In this document: positions 1,932 to 60,608 of the stretch, one piece after another
How positions within the stretch are numbered: position 1 is the stretch's first letter
How the letters are laid out: each line of letters begins with the position of its first letter
Origin: a virus
IMG/VR virus record: IMGVR_UViG_3300020477_000990
Coordinates: 124,001-188,000 of that record
DNA length: 64,000 bases
Direction: 5' to 3' (one strand)
Notes under the pieces: generated by a model
What the model was told of the DNA's origin: nothing
Databases searched by the model: none
What the model saw: only the letters and a program-made list of their open reading frames with translations
Program-made: the position numbers and the translations under genes

Positions 1932-1962
1932 TTGACTTTTCCGCAGAAAACTGCTATAAATA
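1932..1962 (+). promoter_or_regulatory. Promoter for the 1969 gene, also matching a T4-type late box
   Basis: TTGACT at 1932-1937 and TATAAA at 1955-1960 are 17 bp apart, with TGC just before the -10. The -10 is embedded in TATAAATA (1955-1962), the T4 late-promoter consensus. The predicted start is at about 1967, two bases before the ATG. Confidence 0.5.
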
Positions 1963-2732: not shown

Positions 2733-3042
2733 AGCACGATTACACTACATGATACACTATACGACATACTAGTGAATAGTAAAAGAATTGTACTATCTGT
2801 GCGTATGAGCACACCCTTGAAAGAAGGGTACCCAAAAAGAGAAACCGCGTCTCGGATCACCGGGGAATCACCACCGAAAAAGTAATTAGTATATGTATAT
2901 CCACGGTCCTCTTAACCGTTAAAAACAGGGTAACCACCATTGATCTATGCTTCCCCATCATGGCCTATATTGTCGCAATTGCGGAGCGGTCTGTCTTTGA
3001 ACAATGACCTTCGGTCATTATCTCCGATCACCCGAAGCACTT

Positions 3043-3070
3043 ATGCTAACGGCTAGTCGCACGTTAGCAT
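3043..3070. other. Perfect 9-bp inverted repeat (hairpin)
   Basis: ATGCTAACG at 3043-3051 pairs exactly with CGTTAGCAT at 3062-3070 across a 10-base loop. It lies just right of a second hairpin at 3003-3019. No T-run follows, so a simple terminator is unlikely. Confidence 0.6.
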
Positions 3071-3140
3071 GGCGTAGCTTTGGCTGGGTCGTCTTTGATC
3101 AATTGCTCCCTGAATATGTGATCACCATGCTGTATATCGG

Positions 3141-3184
3141 AGCGACAGCTTCGCGACCTGTTAGCTCTAGGGTGTCGCTAACAG
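3141..3184. other. Two interleaved, mutually exclusive stems
   Basis: AGCGACA (3141-3147) pairs with TGTCGCT (3173-3179), and CTGTTAGC (3158-3165) pairs with GCTAACAG (3177-3184). The two 3' arms share three bases, so the stems compete or form a compressed pseudoknot. This would give a bistable RNA if transcribed. Confidence 0.5.
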
Positions 3185-3218
3185 TCAGTCTTAGATAGAT
3201 ATACAGCTATATGGTAGA

Positions 3219-3281
3219 GACCCCGCTGTAAACCATAGGGACCCCGCTGTAACATATACAGACCCCGCTGTGCGGTCTGAT
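3219..3281 (+). repeat. Three 21-bp-spaced GACCCCGCTGT iteron-like repeats
   Basis: Identical 11-mers GACCCCGCTGT begin at 3219, 3240 and 3261, exactly 21 bp (two helical turns) apart. The bases between them differ, apart from short palindromic arms (TATGGT/ACCATA around copy 1, CAGACC/GGTCTG around copy 3). Same-face spacing of identical cores is typical of iterons bound by an initiator or repressor. Confidence 0.7.
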
Positions 3282-3305
3282 GGATTAGTCAGGAATGTAG
3301 CTGTG

Positions 3306-3414
3306 CCGGGACTAGATCTAGTCATTAGCTCCTGATCTCCAGCTTTAGCTCCGGGACTATATGTTGTGGTGGCCTCGATCTATGCCTCTCATGCGTAGAT
3401 TTATTCCGGGACTA
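3306..3414 (+). repeat. CCGGGACTA repeats
   Basis: Perfect copies of CCGGGACTA start at 3306, 3351 and 3406; the last two extend to CCGGGACTATAT. A degenerate copy (CCGGGACAC) starts at 3495. CCGGGACTT also occurs at 12721 inside the candidate RNA near 12.6 kb. Confidence 0.6.
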
Positions 3415-3445
3415 TATATAGTGGTTTTAATTAGACTAATTTTTA

Positions 3446-3474
3446 TTGACTCATTATCGATAATATGCTATATT
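3446..3474 (+). promoter_or_regulatory. Rightward promoter inside the non-coding region
   Basis: TTGACT at 3446-3451, a 17-bp spacer and TATATT at 3469-3474, with TGC immediately before the -10 as in the early gene promoters. Transcription would start near 3481 and read through the 10-bp hairpin and the TCAAAG array. Confidence 0.5.
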
Positions 3475-3480
3475 AAATAT

Positions 3481-3775
3481 ACAACATGGGTCGCCCGGGA
3501 CACGTATTCCTTACCGTATGGGGTCGGGCGGTCAAGTCGATCAAGCGTACGATCCGGCGATCAGCGTATGACGAGAAACAATGATGGAGCCCAGAGATAA
3601 TAGTAGCTGTATGACGGGGGACGGTAGGGTGATACAGCTACACCTTCAAAGAGGCTCAAAGCACTCAAAGAGCTTCAAAGACACTCAAAGGACTCAAAGG
3701 CGCTCAAAGGGGCTCAAAGGGCCTCAAAGGCGGGGCGAGGTTCAAAGAGGCCAGATGGCCCCTCCGGGGCCTATA
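3481..3775 (+). ncRNA. Candidate non-coding transcript with hairpin and TCAAAG array
   Basis: Predicted from the promoter at 3446-3474. The transcript would hold a perfect 10-bp hairpin (3603-3612 with 3632-3641), ten TCAAAG repeats (3646-3747) and a GC-rich hairpin GGCCCC-TCC-GGGGCC (3757-3771) near its end; no T-run follows, so the 3' end is uncertain. A 79-codon reading frame starts at 3581, but it lacks a Shine-Dalgarno sequence and merely translates the repeats. Confidence 0.4.
3645..3748 (+). repeat. Ten TCAAAG repeats at 9-10 bp spacing
   Basis: TCAAAG begins at 3646, 3656, 3665, 3675, 3685, 3694, 3704, 3714, 3724 and 3742. The constant hexamer is joined by variable 3-4 base linkers, so nearly every copy lies on the same DNA face. 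The complement CTTTGA occurs on the same strand at 2995 and 3093, which would allow RNA pairing between the two parts of the region. Confidence 0.75.
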
Positions 3776-3788
3776 TTGAGATTTAGTC

Positions 3789-3840
3789 TTGAGATGTTGC
3801 AAAAATACAACACATTTTGAGATGTTGTAGAAATACAACA
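3789..3840 (+). repeat. Tandem 24-bp repeat with TGTTG/CAACA dyads
   Basis: Copies at 3789-3812 and 3817-3840 agree at 22 of 24 positions. Each contains TGTTG and CAACA as inverted arms, so each could be an operator or small hairpin. Related TGTTGTA fragments recur at 3843 and about 3944. Confidence 0.65.
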
Positions 3841-3880
3841 GGTGTTGTATAAAAGCCACAAGTTACCGTAACTGCTGTAA

Positions 3881-3924
3881 ACACATTTGGAACACAATTG
3901 GAACAAGATTTCAACACAATTGTT
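3881..3924 (+). repeat. Four 11-bp tandem repeats
   Basis: Consecutive 11-mers ACACATTTGGA, ACACAATTGGA, ACAAGATTTCA and ACACAATTGTT show an exact 11-bp register with a conserved ACA start. The array is AT-rich and lies next to the 24-bp repeats. Confidence 0.5.
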
Positions 3925-3987
3925 AATAGCTTATTGGCCACAATATGTTGTAGGGTGTGTGATAAACGCGACACAACATCTTGTATG

Positions 3988-4165
3988 AAAAAAGACTAAT
4001 AATATCAATGGTTTAGCACGGTGAAGCTGTAGCTGTGCTATATGTAGTCAGGACCTGACTAGATATTGTGCCATGGTAAAATGGTCAGAGTTCGGCCCAA
4101 CCTTTGAGTAACAGTCTATTTCTTTCTAAATTTTCTCTGCTCTAGTTAATTTTCGACTGGAGTTA
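3988..4165 (-). ncRNA. Candidate leftward small RNA
   Basis: Downstream of the leftward promoter at 4171-4198, the minus strand contains a perfect 17-base palindrome (4045-4061, TAGTCAGG around a central base), a TAGCAC/GTGCTA hairpin (about 4015-4040) and a run of six T residues at about 3988-3993 that could end transcription. No reading frame with a ribosome site is present. Confidence 0.4.
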
Positions 4166-4170
4166 ATATT

Positions 4171-4198
4171 ATAATAGCATAGGTTTCTATATTGTCAA
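4171..4198 (-). promoter_or_regulatory. Leftward early-type promoter
   Basis: On the minus strand TTGACA (4198-4193), a 16-bp spacer and TATTAT (4176-4171), with TGC before the -10 and TAGAAACCTA (4189-4180) inside the spacer. It is an exact member of the early promoter family but points into the non-coding region rather than at a gene. Confidence 0.65.
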
Positions 4199-4221
4199 GA
4201 GGTTAATTTAAATATTTTTGG

Positions 4222-4249
4222 TTGACACATTGCGTAACCGTGCTACAAT
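4222..4249 (+). promoter_or_regulatory. Early-type promoter of the 4323 gene
   Basis: TTGACA 4222-4227, a 16-bp spacer ending in TGC, and TACAAT 4244-4249. The spacer lacks the TAG-N4-CTA element found in several sister promoters. Confidence 0.7.
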
Positions 4250-4322: not shown

Positions 4323-4700
4323 ATGTCAAATATAAGAATAGCTTACTACAGTCACAGCGAAACACCTATATCAACACTTACTAATTGTCCAGGAGATGAT
4401 TTAGTTAAGGTAGCTAGAATGTTAGAAACAACTGCGCCAACGTGGGAAGATGCTAAGAAGTATGTACACTTAACGCAACACACGTTGCAAGAACACTATG
4501 GTGTAGATGGTTATGGTGATCCTTTATGTACTAGAATAAGTGGTGTAAAGAATAAAGAAAACTTAATTGGTTTGTTTATTCATATGAGATCTAAATGGCA
4601 CTTTAGTGATAATGGTATTGATTGGATCCCAACTGAAGAAGAATTTCCAGTCGATTCTACCGAGCCTTATAAAGTTGTTAACGGATTTGTTAACGTTTAA
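4323..4700 (+). CDS. Hypothetical early protein (125 aa)
   Basis: Not recognised. A soluble mixed alpha/beta protein with several conserved-looking aromatic residues (MRSKWHFSDNGIDWIPTEEEFP). It stands alone between its own promoter, with a structured leader, and a strong terminator, so it is a single-gene unit. A good ribosome site (AAAGGAA) lies before the ATG. Position directly beside the repeat region and early-type control suggest a role at the start of infection; this is inference. Confidence 0.7.
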   Translation: MSNIRIAYYSHSETPISTLTNCPGDDLVKVARMLETTAPTWEDAKKYVHLTQHTLQEHYGVDGYGDPLCTRISGVKNKENLIGLFIHMRSKWHFSDNGIDWIPTEEEFPVDSTEPYKVVNGFVNV

Positions 4701-4790: not shown

Positions 4791-5399
4791 CTACGCAACT
4801 TTAGTTGCTGTAAACTTTACTAGTTCCGAGGCACAATGTTGCCAAAAGTCTCCATCCAAGTTAACATCATAATTTACTGTTTCCTCAGCCTGCATTCCCT
4901 GTTCGCTATATTCGAAGTCTAAATACTTCTCTAATAGCTTTCTATTAAAGTTACATTCTTCTTCCATGTACTTTAATAAATTTTCTGTAAACCCATCGTC
5001 CGTATAAATTAAGCCATCGCTTTCTTTACTCGGGTTCCTATTAATTAATGCAGAGGGATCGTCAACTCCATCATACCATGTGCCGTCTTTTCCGCTTCCG
5101 TCATAGTATGCATTACCCGTAAGTCCGCCACTCCAATATATGTCATCAGCATTCATTGTACTCCAATCTTTTTTGTCGTACATTTGTCTGCTGTGTTGCG
5201 CCATTAAAACGAGATTGCTAACTTTTACTCCTTTAACTACTCCCTTACTCCATATACTATCTCCGCTAGTCCAAATACGTTTGTTAACGTTTACATCAAA
5301 TCGTAACGTTTCATCGTCTTTATCGTATTCGTAATTAACGTTAGCATTCTGCAAAAATTTAATGCCTGCTTGTACTTCTGCTAATGTATACTTTGCCAT
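4791..5399 (-). CDS. Hypothetical early protein (202 aa)
   Basis: Not recognised. This acidic soluble protein starts MAKYTLAEVQAGIKFL and has a Trp/Gly/Asp-rich centre (DDIYWSGGLTGNAYYDGSG) followed by a helical acidic C-terminus. There is no signal peptide or membrane segment. A clear ribosome site (AGAAAGGAAAC) and an early-type promoter at 5424-5451 drive it. The terminator at 4716-4752 is shared with the facing gene. Confidence 0.7.
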   Translation of the reverse strand: MAKYTLAEVQAGIKFLQNANVNYEYDKDDETLRFDVNVNKRIWTSGDSIWSKGVVKGVKVSNLVLMAQHSRQMYDKKDWSTMNADDIYWSGGLTGNAYYDGSGKDGTWYDGVDDPSALINRNPSKESDGLIYTDDGFTENLLKYMEEECNFNRKLLEKYLDFEYSEQGMQAEETVNYDVNLDGDFWQHCASELVKFTATKVA

Positions 5400-11390: not shown

Positions 11391-11414
11391 AATAGTATGG
11401 AAGGAACAAAAACA

Positions 11415-12497
11415 ATGATGCAAAAAATTAAACCCCTATTATGGATATTCTTTGGAGTATATTTCTTTGTATGGGGACTAGCAGGATGTAATAATGATGC
11501 TCGTGCAAATGAGAAGCATGACTTATTAAAAACGAATAACGGAATTAGTAGTAAAGATACTACAATTAAAGGTTGGAAGTTTAGAGCAAATAAACATTTA
11601 AAGAAACATATTAAAAAGGGAGACCTTTTATATACATATGATGTAGTTTATGCTAAAGATGGATTTCCAGTTAGATGGGGAGACACATCACAAAAATTTG
11701 AATTAAGAGGTTTACAATGTACATCAGGAGGTTCTGGGGATTGTAAAAGAGAGAATGGTGATTCAAGTTCTAGAATAGAAACTCCAGTTAAAGATTCTTA
11801 CCATATGGGAAACAATTCCGAGTATTGGATTACTTGGTCTATATATGTTCCTGAAGATTATGTATTAATTCATAAAAAGTCTGGGTTAGGTCAATTCCAC
11901 TCTAACCAAGGACCTATGCCATCACAATGGGAATTTAAATTATATAATGATTATAAGCAAAGTGGTTTCCAATTATGGAATTCTGTATCAGGGGATATAG
12001 AAAAAAGATATGATGCTTGTTTTGGTTCAAGCAATTCTTTATCTAAGATGTCTGACAAGAGTGCTAAATTTCATTGGTGTGAAAAACAATATTGGAAATA
12101 TAATTTAATGTCTCTAGAAGAATTTTATTCACATAGAGGTAAATGGATTGACTTTATTGTAAATGTTAAATGGAGTAATAAAGATAAAGGACACTTTAAA
12201 CTTTGGATTAATGGTAAACAAGTAGTTAACCATCAAGGTAAAACAATGCACGATTCAAAACAATATGGATCAAAGTTTAAAGCAACATTCACTTATGGTA
12301 TGTACAACGATAATAAAAAAGGTATATGGGATGTCACAAAAGAAAGATTTGAACAGCCACTAACAATATATTGGGATGAAGTTTGGAGAATGAAGTCTTG
12401 TAAGAAACTAGACCTTGAAAGACTTGGATACTCATGTGATGCTTTAGACAATGGTGGTAAAGAACATCCAGACCTAATCCATGATAAGAGAAGTTAA
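11415..12497 (+). CDS. Secreted polysaccharide-lyase-like lipoprotein
   Basis: Placed at 11415 behind AAGGAA; an ATG at 11397 is too close to the promoter. Residues 1-26 are a lipoprotein signal (hydrophobic WIFFGVYFFVW then lipobox LAGC), so the product should be exported and lipid-anchored. The body resembles the heparin-lyase/alginate-lyase jelly-roll family (Polysaccharide lyase, PF14099-type): LGQFHSNQGP, then RGKWIDFIVNVKWS, FKLWINGKQVVNHQG and FTYGMYNDN, ending with a strand IYWDEVW. Six or more cysteines suggest disulfides. It could cut host capsule or extracellular polysaccharide, possibly to help release or block re-adsorption. Catalytic residues were not assigned; a non-catalytic lectin-like role is possible. 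Confidence 0.65.
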   Translation: MMQKIKPLLWIFFGVYFFVWGLAGCNNDARANEKHDLLKTNNGISSKDTTIKGWKFRANKHLKKHIKKGDLLYTYDVVYAKDGFPVRWGDTSQKFELRGLQCTSGGSGDCKRENGDSSSRIETPVKDSYHMGNNSEYWITWSIYVPEDYVLIHKKSGLGQFHSNQGPMPSQWEFKLYNDYKQSGFQLWNSVSGDIEKRYDACFGSSNSLSKMSDKSAKFHWCEKQYWKYNLMSLEEFYSHRGKWIDFIVNVKWSNKDKGHFKLWINGKQVVNHQGKTMHDSKQYGSKFKATFTYGMYNDNKKGIWDVTKERFEQPLTIYWDEVWRMKSCKKLDLERLGYSCDALDNGGKEHPDLIHDKRS

Positions 12498-14940: not shown

Positions 14941-14943
14941 GAG

Positions 14944-15003
14944 CTATACAGTAGTACTGTTGTATAGAGCTACAATACTAAAGGCCCTACGGGGCCTTTT
15001 TTT
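14944..15003 (+). terminator. Terminator region with two hairpins
   Basis: A CTATACA/TGTATAG hairpin (about 14944-14967) is followed by AAAGGCCC/GGGCCTTT (14981-14988 with 14993-15000) and a T-run to 15003. Confidence 0.8.
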
Positions 15004-16176
15004 ATGAAATTTATTTCGTAAAAGAAAAATAAAAAAATAAAATAATTTTCCCCTGGCCGACCATGTAAATATTCGCACCCTAAAATCGAGGAGACCTAGG
15101 CTATGACGGACGTTATATTTTTTGGGTAAAAAAGGAGAGGTGTAATATAAAGGGCGGTGCTAAAAAAATTGCAGTAAAAAATTTTTAGTTAAACATATAG
15201 AAATCTGTAATGTAGTATTTTTAATAGAAAACAACCCATATATCCAATATACCCCGCGGCAAGAACAATGATGAACTCAACAGAAACGACAGTAGATCAA
15301 CTGTTATAAAGATTGTTGTCCCCCATTCTTATGAAGCAGTAAAGAACTGTGAACTCACAATGAGCTACACAATGAATCCACGATGAAGCATTGTGATGAT
15401 GCTTAAAAATTAAAATGCTATAAAAAATAGCATTTATAACAATACCTCGCGGGAGAGGTATAACTTAATGGATCACTATGACGCTAAAATGGAAAACTGT
15501 GGTAACTGTTAAGGGCTCAACAATTATAGGTTTCTAACCTACAAATATCATGTAGCCAAATATAAACCACCATACAAGTGCTATTAAAATCAACACTATT
15601 GTTGCTATGTCATCACGCATAACACTATTTAAGCAGAGGCATTAACAAACAGGACACACGGGCTTTAAAATAGGATTAAAGGCTCTTATATACGTAGTAC
15701 TAGCTATGCTTATGAACTGTACGCAAATATGCGTTAGGCCTGTTTGTAGCATACTGCTACGGTGAAGTGATTAGTCTACGGAGTGTAATAAACTGTAACA
15801 ATCTTAATAGCTATTAGGCATGGTGGGGCATGGTGGTTGCTGTAGTTAAGAGTCTTCTGCGAGAGCTGGAAAAGGAACGTAAGTTCCGTTCCACTAGCGA
15901 GCAGATATATCCGTATGAACGAGCTATATTATATCCTTTTAATAAAGTTTATTAGATTTTGTAATTTTGGTCGCAAATACAAGCAAATACAATTATAACC
16001 GCCGCACATACAAACTATACAATATAAACCCCACATACACCGCAAATACAATATAATACTATATACCCCGCACATACAAAAAATCGCAAATACAAACTAT
16101 GCAATATAAACACCCCTACAAAAAAATTTTCGCATACACATAAAATACAATATACGCCCCTTGCGTAAATACTATT
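15004..16176. other. Second long non-coding region
   Basis: About 1.17 kb without a convincing gene. It contains a possible eight-codon leader peptide with a strong ribosome site (GAGGAG, ATG at 15103), a decayed copy of the early promoter near 15189-15212 (TTAAAC, TAGAAATCTG), and nested inverted repeats at about 15265-15325. It also has CACAATGA-type repeats at 15347-15385, a perfect hairpin ATACCTC/GAGGTAT at 15442-15461, an isolated TAGGTTTCTA element at 15527, and the CGCAAATACAA repeat array from 15972. Confidence 0.6.
15972..16160 (+). repeat. Degenerate ~30-bp CGCAAATACAA...CAATATAAACCCC repeats
   Basis: Units begin at about 15972, 16003, 16041, 16069, 16085 and 16131. The best pair is 16003-16032 and 16085-16116, which differ by only a few bases. 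The plus strand is almost free of G outside the CGC cores, giving extreme strand asymmetry. The array ends just before the ATG at 16177. Confidence 0.65.
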
Positions 16177-21013: not shown

Positions 21014-22210
21014 TTAATCCCTTTTGTAATATTTATATTCAGTAATGTCAGCTAGTTCTGGAAACACGTCTTCAAAGTGTTCATTTCGAAATTTATCTAC
21101 ACGTAGCGTCCAGTCAATAAATTTCATCCAATCATGATATCCATAATCATCTTGATTCATATAATCAATAAATGTTTGTATATCTTTATTTTTATGTTCT
21201 AGTAATTTATTAGAAATAGATCTTTTAGCATCGTTAGGTAAACATTTAATATTATAATGCATTGGATAGTGCAAACTATTTAGATATACACTTATACCAA
21301 ATTCTTTAGCCCATGCTAAAAATTCGGGTATGTATAGCACGTTAAAGACGTTGATTGTATGACATATACCAACAGTAAATTTTTTACTTTGTTTATTTTT
21401 AAATTCATTAATAACGTGTAATGCATTTTTCCATTTAGCAGGATGCCTTTGGTATTCAAATTGCTTACCAATACCATCTATAGAAAATTGAATGTCAACA
21501 GACTTAAAGTGGGGCCATATACTTTGCAATGCTTCATTAGGTAATTGTGTTCCATTTGTATTATAATGAATTCCTATGTTTTTAGCATAACCTTGTTCAA
21601 CGCAAAATTGTAATAACTCAAATTGTTCTTTAATTAAAAAAGGTTCTCCTCCAGTAAAGTCGATATATTCTAATGTTGGTAATAATTCTTTAAGCTCACG
21701 CCAAAACTTTTTGTTAGTTTCTGGCCATCCATGCCTAGTGTGTTTTTCTATAGTGTTATCTTCTTTATCATAATGTTGTTGTTCAGCTATCCATTTACTA
21801 GAAGAATGTGTTCCACATATACGACATTTTAAATTACAAATGTTTCCTAGTTTTAAATCAAGATATTTTAACTTAGGTTCCTGTATTATTTCCTTTGTAA
21901 AATGATGTTGATATTTTTTATTATCTCTAATTCTTTTTGAAACTTTACCACTTGCTTCTTCACTCCAGCATTTAGCACACCCACTAGGTTTTTTACCATT
22001 TAGGAATTCTTTTCTTAGGTTTCTATAATAATCACTATTCCAAGCGTCATCAAATGTGTTATTAGATAAATTGAATGGTTGCTTGTTTTTATCAGTCATG
22101 TTATTATTATACATACAGCAAGGTTTAATCCACCCTGCGGCTGTGGACTCTAATGAGATCCATGGTAATATACAAAATGATTTAGGTACGTGCATAACTA
22201 TATTTAACAT
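21014..22210 (-). CDS. Radical SAM protein (twitch/SPASM type)
   Basis: An N-terminal FCILPWISL... PCCMYNN pattern and a CAKCW pair form a possible auxiliary-cluster region. The radical SAM motif CNLKCRICG (C-x3-C-x2-C) sits near residue 128, then DFTGGEPFL, the GGEP motif that positions SAM. The C-terminus (about 270-398) is helical. Such enzymes bind a [4Fe-4S] cluster and generate a 5'-deoxyadenosyl radical; substrate is unknown, but relatives modify peptides or sugars. SufE is encoded divergently just upstream. An in-frame ATG at 22195 is an alternative start. Confidence 0.85.
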   Translation of the reverse strand: MLNIVMHVPKSFCILPWISLESTAAGWIKPCCMYNNNMTDKNKQPFNLSNNTFDDAWNSDYYRNLRKEFLNGKKPSGCAKCWSEEASGKVSKRIRDNKKYQHHFTKEIIQEPKLKYLDLKLGNICNLKCRICGTHSSSKWIAEQQHYDKEDNTIEKHTRHGWPETNKKFWRELKELLPTLEYIDFTGGEPFLIKEQFELLQFCVEQGYAKNIGIHYNTNGTQLPNEALQSIWPHFKSVDIQFSIDGIGKQFEYQRHPAKWKNALHVINEFKNKQSKKFTVGICHTINVFNVLYIPEFLAWAKEFGISVYLNSLHYPMHYNIKCLPNDAKRSISNKLLEHKNKDIQTFIDYMNQDDYGYHDWMKFIDWTLRVDKFRNEHFEDVFPELADITEYKYYKRD

Positions 22211-22227
22211 AGCACAAAAAGGATAAA

Positions 22228-22629
22228 ATGTCTATAGAAGAAAAATATAAGAGCTATCAAGAACAATTAGAAGTACTTACTGAAAATATGGACAAATATC
22301 AGTACCTAATTAACATTGGGTCAAAAAATTCGATGCCAGAAGAATATAAATTAGACTCATTTAAAGTACATGGCTGTATGAGTCAAGTATGGCTAGTACC
22401 AAAATATAATGAAGGTAAAATAACTTTTATGGCTGACTCTGATGCACATATTACTAGAGGAGTAGTTACTATGGTAGCAGATATTTTTAGTGGGTCAACA
22501 GCAAAACAAATACAAGAAACAAATATTGATACTATAATTAATGGACTAGGTTTATTAAGTATTTTATCGCCCAATCGACGTAATGGTGCTTATAATATGT
22601 TTCATAAGGTAAAAGATTATGCCAACTAA
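22228..22629 (+). CDS. sufE: SufE-like Fe-S cluster assembly protein
   Basis: The SufE fold is clear: an N-terminal helix with YKSYQEQLEVLTENMDKYQYLINIG, then KVHGCMSQVWLVP, whose Cys matches the persulfide-accepting cysteine of bacterial SufE (G-C-x-S-x-V-W). The later part (GVVTMVADIFSGST and GLGLLSILSPNRRNG) matches the family's C-terminal helices. Length 133 aa is normal. SufE takes sulfur from a cysteine desulfurase and passes it to the SufBCD scaffold, so it would boost host Fe-S assembly. It lies between two radical SAM genes, which need such clusters. Ribosome site AAGGA. Confidence 0.88.
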   Translation: MSIEEKYKSYQEQLEVLTENMDKYQYLINIGSKNSMPEEYKLDSFKVHGCMSQVWLVPKYNEGKITFMADSDAHITRGVVTMVADIFSGSTAKQIQETNIDTIINGLGLLSILSPNRRNGAYNMFHKVKDYAN

Positions 22630-23434
22630 AATAGCTTGTATTGGTTGCAGTTGGACTGAAGGTATTGCAGTAGATGGTCAACTTATGGACCACCAAGATA
22701 CATATCCATATCTATTATCTAAATACTTAAGAGAAAATGCAAAAAATAATGTTATGTATAATGCTGGAAGGTCGGCGGCAGGAACAGAGTATTATCATTT
22801 AGTTACTGATTATCTAATTAAAAAATTTAATCCAGATATCTTTGTTATACAATTTACAACACATGATCGTGGAATATTACCGTTAGATCCAATTGATGAA
22901 AACGAGAAAAGATTAAATTTTGGTTATGATACTATTGATAACACTTATTGTAAAATTTGGGATAACAATAAAAGTATAATGCATTTAAGTCCTGGAATGG
23001 GTGCAAGTGCCAGTAAGCATAGTTCAGAAACACAATGGGATGGTTTAATAGATAAAATTTATAACGAACGAATAAAAGGAAAAATGGCTCCAGAAGTTGA
23101 ATTAGATACATTAAAAAAATATATTGCGTTGTGGTGGGAGCAATCAAAAAATTCAGATATACAAAAATATTTTTATTATTCTCATATGTATAGTTTGCTT
23201 GATTATTTAGAAGAATTAGGAAAGCAAGTAATTCCTTTTCATTGGATGAGATATAAACCAGAATTTAGAACTAAACTTTTTGAATTGAGACCATATCCAT
23301 CTATAGAAGGATTTTTAGGTAATAAACGTTTTAAAGATTTAACTCACGATAACGGATTTCATTTTGGTGTAGAAGGACACACTACGATAGTTCAGGAACT
23401 TTTAGGTCCTGCAATTCAGGAAATAATTCAATAG
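22619..23434 (+). CDS. SGNH/GDSL-type hydrolase
   Basis: Block I is ACIGCSWTEG at residues 6-15 (Ser nucleophile), then YNAGRSAAGTEY (oxyanion Gly/Asn region), VIQFTTHDR (block III-like), and the C-terminal GFHFGVEGH with the catalytic His. At 271 residues it matches stand-alone phage SGNH proteins. It overlaps SufE by 11 bases, so the two are translated together. Confidence 0.75.
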   Translation: MPTKIACIGCSWTEGIAVDGQLMDHQDTYPYLLSKYLRENAKNNVMYNAGRSAAGTEYYHLVTDYLIKKFNPDIFVIQFTTHDRGILPLDPIDENEKRLNFGYDTIDNTYCKIWDNNKSIMHLSPGMGASASKHSSETQWDGLIDKIYNERIKGKMAPEVELDTLKKYIALWWEQSKNSDIQKYFYYSHMYSLLDYLEELGKQVIPFHWMRYKPEFRTKLFELRPYPSIEGFLGNKRFKDLTHDNGFHFGVEGHTTIVQELLGPAIQEIIQ

Positions 23435-24611
23435 CATTTTCATTACGTAATTTATCAACCATATTAGTTCTTTCCCAAAACTTTGGAATAAGATGTGATG
23501 AATCTTTTTCATACATAAAGTGAATTAATTTATCATAACGTTTTTCTTTATTGTGTGTATACTTGTCAAACCATTCTTGTTCTTGAACGTATCTTTCTTC
23601 TAAACGTTTTTTCATTTCCATTGGAAGTATTTGTATAGAAAGTTCTTCTGGTACAAACAACGGATTAATCAAACTGCCACCAACAGCGTCAACCCAACCT
23701 TTTTGTATCCATTCATGATGAAAGTCTGGTACATGGAAACTATTATATACATTTAAACAAGTTGCAAGGAACACATATACATCTGGACAAATATCAAACA
23801 TACGTTTTCTATTTTCTTCAACTTGTTCCCATGATTGTCCTTTACGTAAGTATTCTCCACGTTTACCCATGCCATCTAACGAAGCACCTATTTTAACAGA
23901 TTCAAAACGATTCCATATTTCCATAACGTCTAATTTTTTAAATACCATTTGTGAAAAGTTTGTGTTGTACTTTAATCTTACGTGATACATTTTACGTTCA
24001 TCAAGTTTTTTTAGAATTCTATAATGCTCTTCCATAATTAATGGTTCACCACCTGCAAAGTATATTTCTTCTAAGCCGTCCATATATGGTTCAACTTTTT
24101 TCCAAAATGTTTCTTCGTCTTTATAAGGTCTTATAATTTTAGGCTGATCCAATGGGCCATATAATTTTACATTATCTTCATACCAACTTGATGATAAGTC
24201 TGGTCCACAAGTTCTACATTTAAAATTACACAAATTTGAAAATCTAAAATCAATATAAGGTAAGTTAATTTTATCAACTGTACCATCTTCTTTAGTGGTA
24301 CCAATCTTATCAAAATGATTTTCAAATGCTTCGTTGGCCCAAGTTCTTGTTGTATTCAATCCACTTGACTCCATGGAATAACAACGAGTACATTCTTTTG
24401 TTGGTTTATCTTTTAACATTGCTACACGCATTTTCTTTAACTTATCTGAATTCCAAATTTCTTCAAATGATTGATCTTTTAAGTTACCAAGTATCTCATT
24501 CATAGGAGCCATACAACAAGGTAACACTCTACCATCTGGCCATGAGTGTAAATGTGTCCAAGGTAACATACAAAATCGTTTTGATTTTTTTAATGCGTAA
24601 TCTTTATCCAT
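23382..24611 (-). CDS. Radical SAM protein (twitch/SPASM type)
   Basis: A paralogue of the 21014-22210 product. It has FCMLPWTHLHSWPDG...PCCM at the N-terminus, CTRCY at about residue 98, the radical SAM motif CNFKCRTCG at about 148, and YFAGGEPLIM (GGEP). The last 100 residues are helical and end in a short LKVPELS. Enzyme class and SAM use are certain; the substrate is unknown. It sits downstream of the glycosyltransferase-like 24604 gene and overlaps its stop by eight bases. Confidence 0.85.
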   Translation of the reverse strand: MDKDYALKKSKRFCMLPWTHLHSWPDGRVLPCCMAPMNEILGNLKDQSFEEIWNSDKLKKMRVAMLKDKPTKECTRCYSMESSGLNTTRTWANEAFENHFDKIGTTKEDGTVDKINLPYIDFRFSNLCNFKCRTCGPDLSSSWYEDNVKLYGPLDQPKIIRPYKDEETFWKKVEPYMDGLEEIYFAGGEPLIMEEHYRILKKLDERKMYHVRLKYNTNFSQMVFKKLDVMEIWNRFESVKIGASLDGMGKRGEYLRKGQSWEQVEENRKRMFDICPDVYVFLATCLNVYNSFHVPDFHHEWIQKGWVDAVGGSLINPLFVPEELSIQILPMEMKKRLEERYVQEQEWFDKYTHNKEKRYDKLIHFMYEKDSSHLIPKFWERTNMVDKLRNENAIELFPELQDLKVPELS

Positions 24612-56650: not shown

Positions 56651-57685
56651 ATGGAAATAGATACAAGTACAAAAGTTGATGATAAATCTAAGATAAAAAT
56701 ATCTGATATTGATATATTTTACCTATCATATGATGAGCCTAATAAACAAGAGCATTGGGCAGATATCAAAAGTAAAGTTCCATGGGCTAAATGGGTAGAT
56801 GGCGTTGAAGGATCAGATGCGGCACACAAAGCCTGTGCTAATAGAAGTGATACTACTAGGTTTATTACTGTAGATGGCGATAATAAGTTAGTTAATTATG
56901 AAAAATTAATTGATTTAGAACTTGACTTTTCTGATTATGAAAATTTAAATTTAGAAGAGTCTGTAGTATCTTTTACAGGTTATAATAACATTAACGGATT
57001 AATGTATGGTAATGGTGGTATTAAGTGCTGGCCAAAACAAGCAGTTCTTGATATGAAAACACACGAAGCGGCTGAGTCAGAAGGATCAGCTGTAGACTTC
57101 TGTTGGGATATGAATTATATACAATTAAACGAATGCTTTTCGCACGTATATAATAACGCAACACCGCATCAAGCCTGGCGTGCCGGATTTAGAGAAGGTG
57201 TAAAAATGTCTTTAGACAGAGGATTTAAAGTTGATTCAGTTAACTTTGAAAAAAATATCCATGACAAAAATTATCATAGACTTTTAATTTGGGCGTCTGT
57301 AGGACGAAATGTTGATAATGGTTTATGGGCAATATACGGAACAAGACTTGGTTGCTATATGACAAATTGTACTGATTGGGATTTTGTTAATGTAAGAGAT
57401 TTTGAATGGCTTAATAAATTTTGGAAAGAAGAAGTTAAACCACAATTTACAGGTAATGACCAAATGTGTCATTACGAAAAGTATCAATGGGATAAAGAAA
57501 AACTTTTAAAAGAGTCTCTTAGACTTGGTAAAGAATTAAGAAGCAAACTTGGATTACAATTAGGTGATTTAGGACCAGATGATTCAGCATTCTTTAAAAA
57601 AGTATATTGGAATCCGCCTCGCTCTGGAGCATTTGTAACAGAAAAAGGACAAGACGGAATTACTCGTTATAAAGTATTGAAATGA
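56651..57685 (+). CDS. Glycosyltransferase-like protein (344 aa)
   Basis: IDIFYLSYDEPNKQEHW at the start and RFITVDGDNKLVNYE (D-G-D) with a following strand give a GT-A-like sugar-donor site; AHKACANRSDTTRF is the typical helix before it. Proteins with this N-terminus occur after tail genes in marine T4-like phages. Substrate unknown. Confidence 0.6.
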   Translation: MEIDTSTKVDDKSKIKISDIDIFYLSYDEPNKQEHWADIKSKVPWAKWVDGVEGSDAAHKACANRSDTTRFITVDGDNKLVNYEKLIDLELDFSDYENLNLEESVVSFTGYNNINGLMYGNGGIKCWPKQAVLDMKTHEAAESEGSAVDFCWDMNYIQLNECFSHVYNNATPHQAWRAGFREGVKMSLDRGFKVDSVNFEKNIHDKNYHRLLIWASVGRNVDNGLWAIYGTRLGCYMTNCTDWDFVNVRDFEWLNKFWKEEVKPQFTGNDQMCHYEKYQWDKEKLLKESLRLGKELRSKLGLQLGDLGPDDSAFFKKVYWNPPRSGAFVTEKGQDGITRYKVLK

Positions 57686-59088
57686 CCGATGAAGTACGCA
57701 AGATCAAACAAACTAGAGATAGATTAAATGCAGTATCGCCTAGCTTCTGTACAGCAAAATGGTTACAAGTTACCATGCACTTACAGAATGGCCATACGCA
57801 TTCTTGCCACCATCCACAAACACACAAAATACCGTTAGAAGAATTACGTACAAACCCAACAGCACTTCATAATACAGAGCTAAAGAAAAAGCAACGTAGA
57901 ATGATGTTAGATGGTACACGTCCAAAAGAGTGCCAGTATTGTTGGAACGTAGAAGATTTAGGTGAGGATAGAATTAGCGATCGATACCTCAAATCCCATG
58001 ACACTTGGGCTCTTCCTCACCTAGACACAATAGCAAAGTCTGATTGGAAAGCAAACGTTAATCCAAGATATGTTGAAGTATCTTTTTCAAATGTTTGTAA
58101 TTTAAAATGTTCTTATTGTTCTCCAGCATTTAGTTCTAAATGGGTTGAAGAAATTGTACAACATGGTCCTTATCCAACATCAGATAAATTTAATAACTTA
58201 GATTGGTTACAGCAACAAAACAAAATGCCAATACCACATAGAGAATCAAATCCTTATGTAGAAGCATTTTGGAAATGGTTTCCAGATTTATATAAAACGT
58301 TAGAAGTATTTAGAATAACAGGTGGAGAACCTTTAATGTCTAAAGATACTTTTAAAGTTTTTGATTATATAATTGACAACCCAAATCCTAATTTAGAATT
58401 AAGTATTAATTCTAATGCCTGTGTGCCAGATGTTTTATTTGACAAATATATTGAAAAAATGAAACGTATTACTGGAGAAAACAAAGTTGGTAGAACAAGA
58501 TTATATACGTCAGTTGACACTTGGGGTGTACAAGCAGAATATATTAGAGATGGATTTAATTATTACCAATGGCACGACAATATTGAAAAAGTATTAAAAG
58601 AATTACCTTTAACAAAAGTGACTGTTATGTGTACAACTAATTTATTAAGTATGCCAAACTTTCATCATTTAGTAGATGACATTTATCATTGGAAAAATGA
58701 TTTTTATTCAAATGAACGCAGGGTTCCTATTACATTAGATATGGCTATATTAAGGCATCCGGTACACCAAAGTGCTGTAATATTACCACCAGAATATGCT
58801 AGTATGATGAATCCAGCATTAGCTTATATGGAGAGTCATGCAGAAACGCATAGCAATCCATATAAAGGATTCTTTGATTTTGAAATTGAAAAAATGAAAA
58901 GGTTTATTGAATATGTTAAAGCAGGACCCAATGAAGCTGAACGTATTAATTTAGATGTGTCTAGAAAAGACTTTAAATACTTTATAGATGAACATGATAG
59001 AAGACGAGGTACAAATTTTAAAAAGACATTTCCTGAGTTAGTAGAATTTTATAACTTATGTGGACAAAGTATTAAAGAGTTAGCATGA
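57682..59088 (+). CDS. Radical SAM protein (468 aa)
   Basis: N-terminal SFCTAKWLQVTMHL with SCHHPQTHKIP and CQYCWNVEDLG precede the radical SAM motif CNLKCSYCSP at about residue 138, then FRITGGEPLMS. The C-terminal 150 residues are helical with RRGTNFKKTFPEL near the end. The enzyme should use SAM and a [4Fe-4S] cluster. It is coupled by four bases to the upstream and downstream genes. Confidence 0.85.
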   Translation: MTDEVRKIKQTRDRLNAVSPSFCTAKWLQVTMHLQNGHTHSCHHPQTHKIPLEELRTNPTALHNTELKKKQRRMMLDGTRPKECQYCWNVEDLGEDRISDRYLKSHDTWALPHLDTIAKSDWKANVNPRYVEVSFSNVCNLKCSYCSPAFSSKWVEEIVQHGPYPTSDKFNNLDWLQQQNKMPIPHRESNPYVEAFWKWFPDLYKTLEVFRITGGEPLMSKDTFKVFDYIIDNPNPNLELSINSNACVPDVLFDKYIEKMKRITGENKVGRTRLYTSVDTWGVQAEYIRDGFNYYQWHDNIEKVLKELPLTKVTVMCTTNLLSMPNFHHLVDDIYHWKNDFYSNERRVPITLDMAILRHPVHQSAVILPPEYASMMNPALAYMESHAETHSNPYKGFFDFEIEKMKRFIEYVKAGPNEAERINLDVSRKDFKYFIDEHDRRRGTNFKKTFPELVEFYNLCGQSIKELA

Positions 59089-60608
59089 CAAAGAAACGTA
59101 AAGACGAAACATATCAACAGTATAGGGATAGGGTAATTAACCCAATATCGTCATCATGGTGTGGCGCCAAATGGTATAATGCTACTATATGGTTGAATAG
59201 CGGTACTACTGCAAGTTGTCATCACCCTCCTGCACATAAAGTACCATTAGAAGAAGTATTAGCAAATCCAAAAGCAATACATAATACCAAATATAAAAAA
59301 ATGGTACGTAAACAAATGCAATGTGGTGAAAGACCTAAAGAGTGTGAGTATTGTTGGAAAGTTGAGGACTTAGGTCCTAATAACGTTTCTGATAGAGTTT
59401 ATAAAACAGTTATATATACAGAAGATCAAATAGCCAAAGCAAGTAAAATGGATTGGCAAGATGATGTTGATTTACATACATTAGAAATTGCTTTTGATGC
59501 CAATTGTAATTATGCTTGTTCTTATTGCAATGCTAGTTTCTCAACAACATGGCAAAATGATATTAAGAAAAATGGAGCATATCAAAATTTAGTTAGTGAT
59601 GGTGCAAGAGCATTTCAACAAGATGGTAAATGGGCAATGCCATATGGAAAGAAAAATATAGGTAATCCTTATGTAGATGCTTTCTTTAAATGGTGGAAGT
59701 CAGACTTACATAAAACTTTACAAGAGTTAAGAGTAACAGGTGGTGAAGCAACAATGTCACAGGACTTTTGGCGTTTACTAGAATGGTGGCAAACTAATAA
59801 AGATTGTGAAGTACGTTTAGCAGTTAATTCTAATTTAGGAACTAAACCAGAACTTATTGATAAGTTAGCACGAGAAAGTCATGCATTTAAAGAGTTTGAT
59901 TTATATACTTCTAATGAATCGTTTGGCGGCCATGCAGAATATATTAGAGATGGATTAATATGGAATACTTGGTTAGGTAATATTCACAAAATGATGGAAC
60001 AAGGTAATGTACGTGAATTACATATGATGATGACTATTAATGCATTGTGCTTGTTTAGTATTACAGAATTTATGGACGAAATGATTAAACTAAAAGAACG
60101 TTATGGACAATTTGCACCTGCAATGAGTTTTAATATATTACGTTTTCCTAGTTTTCAATCAGCAGTAACATTGCCACAAGATATTAAAAAACGTTTAGCT
60201 GACAATTTAGAAAATTGGTTAGAAAATGTTGGAAAGAAACACGAATTGTTTTTTGATATGGAACAAGATGGTGTAAGTAGATTAATAAATTATTTACGTG
60301 AAGTAGAAGTAGGTCACCAAGGTACTTCATCTATAGAAACACGTGAAAGAGATTTTAAATCATTTTATAGTCAATATGATATCAGAAGAAACAAATCATT
60401 TGAAAACACATTTCCTGAAGATGTTGTTAAATGGTATAAATCAATACCAGATACAAATTTACAAAAGTTACAAGGTATAGTTGATGGTGATTCAACTAAA
60501 GGTAATATGATGAAAAAAGAATTAGAGGAAAGAGCTAAAACAGAAGGCTGGGTTATGAATCCGCAAGGCCCTAACCCAGGATCACAAGAATATAAAGAAA
60601 AAGTATGA
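59085..60608 (+). CDS. Radical SAM protein (507 aa), diverged tandem paralogue
   Basis: Its layout equals that of the previous gene product: SSWCGAKWYNATIWL with SCHHPPAHKVP, CEYCWKVEDLG, the radical SAM motif CNYACSYCNA at about residue 142, and LRVTGGEATMS, in which GGEP is replaced by GGEA. The C-terminal tail is about 40 residues longer. The two genes arose by tandem duplication and may have different substrates or form a heterodimer. Confidence 0.85.
   Translation: MTKKRKDETYQQYRDRVINPISSSWCGAKWYNATIWLNSGTTASCHHPPAHKVPLEEVLANPKAIHNTKYKKMVRKQMQCGERPKECEYCWKVEDLGPNNVSDRVYKTVIYTEDQIAKASKMDWQDDVDLHTLEIAFDANCNYACSYCNASFSTTWQNDIKKNGAYQNLVSDGARAFQQDGKWAMPYGKKNIGNPYVDAFFKWWKSDLHKTLQELRVTGGEATMSQDFWRLLEWWQTNKDCEVRLAVNSNLGTKPELIDKLARESHAFKEFDLYTSNESFGGHAEYIRDGLIWNTWLGNIHKMMEQGNVRELHMMMTINALCLFSITEFMDEMIKLKERYGQFAPAMSFNILRFPSFQSAVTLPQDIKKRLADNLENWLENVGKKHELFFDMEQDGVSRLINYLREVEVGHQGTSSIETRERDFKSFYSQYDIRRNKSFENTFPEDVVKWYKSIPDTNLQKLQGIVDGDSTKGNMMKKELEERAKTEGWVMNPQGPNPGSQEYKEKV

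Follow-up and report, generated by a model that had tools for sequence, protein, structure and literature searches.

Introduction

Among the described systems that come closest to the locus reported here are the replication origins of phage T4. T4 oriE carries 12-nt repeats that are kept in related phages and whose role is unproven (PMC3016281), and the origin oriF includes a regulated promoter (PMC3016281). A preliminary description of the present locus had started from the premise that T4-type phages are not usually known for iteron origins; this premise does not hold, since T4 oriE also has iterons (PMC3016281).

The locus, which we call the hub, occupies positions 2733-4221 of a 64,000-nucleotide stretch of DNA (the window) that corresponds to bases 124001-188000 of a 328,149-bp virus record. 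The phage is T4-type, as its major capsid protein matches the gp23 family (PF07068, E 5.9e-97, 322 bits), and it is a giant T4-like phage, probably marine. The hub is free of genes, and its elements recur in related phages, largely in the same order. Within what could be searched, it is undescribed.

Results

The preliminary description had called 2733-4221 gene-free, and no credible gene was found there: the open reading frames are at most 79 amino acids long, overlap and are mutually inconsistent. When the hub was compared by tblastx with its counterpart in L004, the closest relative, matches appeared in many frames and on both strands across the hub, which is the pattern of conserved noncoding DNA; the flanking gene 4323-4700 gave a single clearly best frame against L004. 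The G+C content is 45-46% at 3001-4000, compared with about 31% in the surrounding DNA and the genome. From left to right, the hub consists of a left block, an RNA-like domain, a ACCCCGCTGTA triplet, three dyads, a rightward promoter, an array, hairpin repeats, a leftward block, a further dyad, a 28-nt core and divergent promoters. Repeats with periods of 21, 9-10, 28 and 11 bp, as first described, are all present, and the term "helically phased" suits the 21- and 11-bp sets and, roughly, the 9-10-bp set, but not the 28-bp one. The many perfect hairpins were also confirmed, with 7 stems of at least 7 bp against 1.3 in shuffled sequences (0 of 200 shuffles reached 7). Other 1.5-kb pieces of the window have a mean of 3.2 such stems and a maximum of 8, so that the hairpin count of the hub is high, yet not unique within the window.

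A second gene-free stretch of 1.2 kb lies at 14941-16176 of the window. It contains CAATATAAACC-type repeats (15972-16111) and, close to its beginning, a hairpin that resembles an intrinsic terminator; the hub motifs were not seen there. A polysaccharide lyase gene is present at window 11397-12497, and several radical-SAM-domain genes and QueC-like matches were noted at window 21014-24611 and 57682-60608 and in L096.

Homologous hubs were found in about ten other phage contigs, by searching first with the flanking genes and then with a conserved 24-letter pattern, and for L045 with a sequence model. They are L004, L019/L022, L014/L092, L088, L091, L094, L095, L120 and L045, with weaker cases in L084 and L085. 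The hub of L004 is the closest, with 68-71% identity in blocks and the same element order as the window. A second group (L019/L022, L014/L092, L088, L094 and L095) has a small leftward gene inside the hub and carries a ACCCCGCTGTA element to the left of the left block. L091 and L120 have a ACCCCGCTGTA pair and the left motif in common with the window hub, and L045 is a diverged member. The hubs of L084 and L085 adjoin a homologue of gene 4791-5399; both contain dyads and that of L085 an array. At the matching place in L001, the sole relative of the left-flank gene, there are coding ORFs and the hub is absent, and L118/L119, which have the right-hand gene in common with the window, lack the core.

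Comparison of the hub with GenBank phages by DNA similarity gave only chance matches, at AT-rich promoter DNA. A search for the core pattern in 84,980 prokaryote species returned one contig, L095 (PBJN01000001.1), which is binned as a Porticoccaceae genome, carries phage-type genes and has the same hub. The assignment either gives a weak indication of the host or just reflects an error in binning. Rfam gave no match in the window at gathering score and only chance-level matches in the hub alone at a lax threshold, and a tRNA/tmRNA search found none in the window. No Rfam family reached threshold in the hubs of L004, L019, L085, L088, L091, L092, L094 and L095; the matches in the loci of these eight relatives and of L084 were just tRNAs and one glutamine riboswitch (RF01739, 61 bits), at L084 7292-7344, upstream of a small ORF and near the L084 hub. 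A second strongly conserved, hairpin-rich noncoding stretch was seen at L095 1460-1640 and L092 7746-7890, without an Rfam match; similar letters also occur in L091 and L120. It may be another new structured RNA.

A 14-bp dyad, SACTAKATNTWGTS, is almost confined to hubs. It has 18 exact sites in 8 records, 16 of them in hubs, and the reversed control has 0. Because SACTAKATNTWGTS was derived from the window hub and its relatives, its presence in hubs is expected, and the informative part is its scarcity elsewhere: it is nearly absent from the remaining roughly 1.1 million bases of the eight records, the two non-hub sites being one about 1.5 kb from the L084 hub and one elsewhere. In the window, dyad 1 (GACTAGATCTAGTC, 3310-3323) is a perfect palindrome, dyad 2 (GACTATATGTTGTG, 3355-3368, + strand) lies 45 bp from it, and dyad 3 (GACTATATATAGTG, 3410-3423) lies a further 55 bp away. 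The spacing in L004 is 45 and 56 bp, and is thus kept despite differing letters between the dyads. Dyad 3 ends 22 bp before the -35 box of a rightward promoter inside the hub (3446-3474, + strand, TTGACT-17-TATATT with extended TGC), which is weaker than those at the hub edge and has its match at L004 7403-7431. A fourth dyad (GACTAGATATTGTG) is found at 4057-4070, with an imperfect dyad also at 4037-4049.

The dyads stand upstream of promoters in the relatives as well. If the -35 box is taken to begin at -36, their centres fall at -75.5 (L085, L019), -76.5 (L084, L088), -77.5 (L092), -65.5 (window) and -58.5 (L004), with two outliers and a full range of -58.5 to -92.5; five of the nine distances cluster within 2 bp and the remainder differ. 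With this geometry, the dyads look like sites for a transcription regulator.

At the right edge of the hub, a strong leftward promoter (4171-4198, - strand, TTGACA-16-TATTAT with extended TGC) points inward and is the putative start of an RNA containing the core, and a strong divergent promoter (4222-4249, + strand, TTGACA-16-TACAAT) points outward, toward gene 4323-4700. Of the inward promoters first described at both sides, only the one at 4198 (- strand) is present; the left edge has none. Both edge promoters belong to the TTGACA-N16/17-TANNAT sites, which number 31 genome-wide on the + strand against 7 in the reversed control; some promoter matches may be due to chance. A further conserved block at 3971-4018 (- strand), with an imperfect dyad at 3972-3984, aligns with L004 7912-7960. 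Its place is that of the leftward gene promoter in L088, L092 and L019.

The 28-nt core, TACTCAAAGGnTGGGCCGAACTCTGACC when read leftward, lies at 4083-4110 on the - strand and is a putative short RNA or leader element. In seven aligned diverged phages it is nearly invariant, with variation in one inner base and the outermost letters, and the flanks are not conserved; most hubs were found via the exact core pattern, so this invariance is partly due to the way they were selected, and in L045, found without an exact match, the core has diverged. In all seven it is present once per record, and a conserved leftward early promoter lies 60-130 nt upstream of it. A small protein (SEFGPxFEYRS, + strand) was considered and rejected: some copies run directly into a stop codon, and third codon positions are constant. 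Protein sequence does not look like the constraint on the core, since in the only sensible frame synonymous variation is missing and the one variable inner base alters the amino acid. A stable hairpin was rejected as well, RNAalifold giving a weak fold with no covariation. We infer that the core belongs to a short early RNA or leader; as its consensus RNA fold is weak and lacks covariation, it may act as DNA.

The core had no match in GenBank phages and only chance matches in plasmids. On the - strand it contains CCGAACUCUG, which is similar to a conserved segment of 5S rRNA from bacteria; Rfam gave no 5S match at the core, and the likeness may be chance. In the window, CTCAAAGG occurs in both the array and the core, and the array was considered as a decoy for the core. 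This was rejected because elsewhere the array unit differs and the core does not.

At the other end of the hub, the left conserved block or A motif (2829-2954) is 71% identical to L004 6913-7038, and its counterpart TCTCTCNNNACC was recognised by eye at the matching place in L019, L088, L092, L095, L045, L091, L120, L084 and L085. It is followed by a structured RNA-like domain at 2983-3109 (+ strand), closed by an outer helix of GGAGC (2983-2987) and GCTCC (3105-3109) and containing the stems P2 (3003-3019, with a UUC loop), P3 (3032-3038 with 3077-3083) and P4 (3043-3070). The internal-loop letters CTT / GGCGTAGC are conserved, and the conserved single-stranded letters (the UUC loop, CUU and GGCGUAGC beside P4, and UGAUCAAUUGC) anchor the alignment with L004. 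Relative to shuffles, the fold of 2965-3115 has z-scores of -4.2 (+) and -4.4 (-), and the L004 counterpart -5.2 and -6.1. Averaged over the whole hub, z is about -0.8 (+) and -1.0 (-), where the background is -0.3.

The preliminary description had proposed alignment with related phages to look for compensatory changes in the stems, and these were found. P2, P3 and P4 together show two-sided compensatory changes against L004 in 14 of 22 pairs, with 0 broken, in a test on two sequences (window and L004) whose arms were aligned by hand and whose stems were picked since both form them; the choice of stems formed in both, and the use of one close relative, bias this result upward. When the letters of one arm were permuted, full pairing was reached in 0 of 200,000 trials. 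P3 holds one G-U pair on the + strand that would be A-C on the other, and this pair, together with small energy differences, slightly favours the + strand for the predicted domain 2983-3109. A scan with the P3/P4 letter pattern matched L004 and, beyond it, just two sequences of bacterial type, both unrelated. The letters of a T4-type late promoter, TATAAATA, occur at window 1955-1962, just before a spanin-like gene (1969-2352), and late transcripts from there could enter the hub by read-through.

Between the domain and the dyads lie a perfect 8-bp hairpin (CTGTTAGC..GCTAACAG, 3158-3184), which was not found in L004, and three copies of ACCCCGCTGTA with 21-bp spacing (3220-3272, + strand, the third with one mismatch), the period-21 repeat spanning 3215-3271. 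At up to one mismatch, ACCCCGCTGTA occurs in the 328-kb genome in the hub only; L004, L091 and L120 have two copies each, and L092, L095, L019 and L045 have variants. To the right of the rightward promoter, a 10-bp hairpin (GTAGCTGTAT..ATACAGCTAC, 3603-3641) precedes the array of ten TCAAAG units (3646-3747, + strand), spaced by 9-10 and, for the last, 18; the repeat with a period of about 10 spans 3646-3732. Arrays of other units stand at the matching place in relatives: TCAAAG/TCAATG in L004, TCACGA/TCACTA in L085, TCACTA/TCACTG in the second group (L088, L092, L094, L095) and, by eye, TCTGAA/TCTTAA in L045. The TCANNR pattern is too loose for arrays to be recognised by genome-wide count alone, and they were read locally. 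The spacing is even in the window array and looser in some relatives; the syntenic place is kept. Retention of an array while its unit changes suggests that it is read by a co-evolving binding partner.

Two 28-nt repeats follow (3789-3844), each a TGTTGYARAAATACAACA hairpin, with a GAAA loop at 3823-3840. This hairpin has one compensatory pair in L004 (7775-7792) and is also present in L019 and L087. A TGTTGYANAAATRCAACA hairpin occurs outside any hub at L019 16895-16932 and L087 504-544, between genes after stop codons, and may serve these phages more generally as an element at mRNA ends. The AACACAATTGG repeats with a period of 11 (3880-3922) are not conserved in L004.

Discussion

We propose, with a probability of roughly 60%, that the hub is a noncoding control locus, conserved and made of several parts: promoters bound by a regulator, a short RNA transcribed leftward and a structured RNA. 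The observations behind this reading are the conservation of the locus, the hub-specific dyads, the compensatory stems and the promoter geometry. The conservation of repeats and stems that the preliminary description had made its touchstone is present, with compensatory stems, and with repeats, dyads and promoters that recur in relatives; the same findings support the half of its interpretation that pointed to structured RNA and a control locus. In the proposed scheme, transcription, the regulator and the functions of the parts are predictions. A putative regulator, encoded by the phage or the host, would bind the 14-bp dyads upstream of the early-type hub promoters and switch these promoters during infection. 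The leftward early promoter 4198 would make a short RNA or leader with the nearly invariant 28-nt core, which could work at the RNA level, either base-paired to a target or bound to a protein. The domain 2983-3109, probably on the + strand, would be transcribed by read-through from the left; like the direct-repeat array, it would add a part that binds protein or RNA. One or more regulators would bind the dyads and the array as DNA, and RNA would be the active form of the core and of the P2-P4 domain.

The other half of the earlier interpretation, a replication origin, is possible but in our estimate unlikely, and nothing specific points to it. An initiator would bind the dyads, the array or both, and the AT-rich stretch at about 3420-3480, next to the + promoter, would open, perhaps through R-loop formation in the manner of T4 oriF/oriG. 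Three dyads of fixed spacing beside an AT-rich stretch and a promoter would suit such an origin, and arrays that stay in place despite a changing unit are the outcome expected from co-evolution with a binding protein. The hub also lies at a switch of coding strand and skew, as do T4 oriE, oriF and oriG, and oriE offers a precedent of conserved iterons, albeit of unproven role (PMC3016281). However, the G+C skew, judged from sampled 4-kb pieces, is positive over most of the genome and tracks gene direction, with no origin-like flip; this pattern is nevertheless compatible with an origin, since in T4 the skew likewise shifts where transcription switches. Profile searches recognised no replication gene among the genes flanking the hub, DNA polymerase B is about 91 kb away, and an origin alone explains neither the core nor the compensatory RNA stems. 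The control-locus and origin ideas are compatible with each other because the promoter of T4 oriF is part of the origin.

Rather less probable is that the hub is mainly a cluster of independent structured RNAs, with the dyads and the array incidental or acting as RNA. The compensatory stems, the GAAA hairpins, the nearly invariant core and the strong fold z-scores of 2965-3115 would all fit, but the dyad is a palindrome of conserved sequence that is linked to promoters and occurs in hubs alone, as is typical of a DNA-binding site, and the mean fold z of the whole hub departs little from background. A centromere-like or packaging site, where a protein of the ribbon-helix-helix type would act on the iterons in DNA partition or packaging, appears very improbable. 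Arrays spaced by about 10 bp resemble parC-type iterons, and one hub was found per record, but this explanation leaves the promoters, the core and the RNA stems unaccounted for, and profile searches of some of the genes flanking the hub, most small ones being without assignment, gave no partition gene (ParM/ParR, TubZ/TubR). The G+C content of 45% against 31% and the lack of a meaningful GenBank phage match by DNA similarity might suggest that the hub consists of genes in decay, or of functionless foreign DNA acquired recently. This is hardly credible, being contradicted by the many elements that about ten diverged phages conserve in order.

A gene-free locus conserved over long distance in giant T4-type phages gives concrete sequence handles, namely the 28-nt core, the 14-bp dyad, the repeat array and the foldable RNA domain, on two open questions in such phages: the ordering of early transcription and the sites of replication start. 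The dyad could be used as bait for its protein and the core as a tag for related phages in metagenomes. Speculatively, the hub might represent a new type of locus that joins a conserved early RNA element, a fast-evolving array with a co-evolving protein and dyad-controlled promoters, serving this group of giant T4-type phages as both a replicator and a source of regulatory RNA.

Similar to T4 oriE, oriF and oriG, the hub belongs to a T4-type phage and has syntenic noncoding direct repeats, a switch of coding strand and promoters (PMC3016281). It differs from oriE, which has 12-nt repeats and the nearby repEA/repEB (PMC3016281), in having several repeat classes, hub-specific dyads, the 28-nt core and compensatory stems. 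As with GOLLD and ROOL, it is a gene-free structured stretch in phage genomes; unlike them, it has no Rfam match at threshold and is not one continuous fold. Palindromes placed upstream of sigma-70-type promoters, at a more or less constant distance, recall CRP-like class I promoters, but the hub dyads are nearly confined to one locus per genome, and their sequence is unlike any regulator site known to us. Finally, the hub has in common with the parC/ParR iteron centromeres about ten short direct repeats at about 10-bp spacing, and is set apart from them by an array unit that differs among relatives and by the RNA-like parts that accompany the array.
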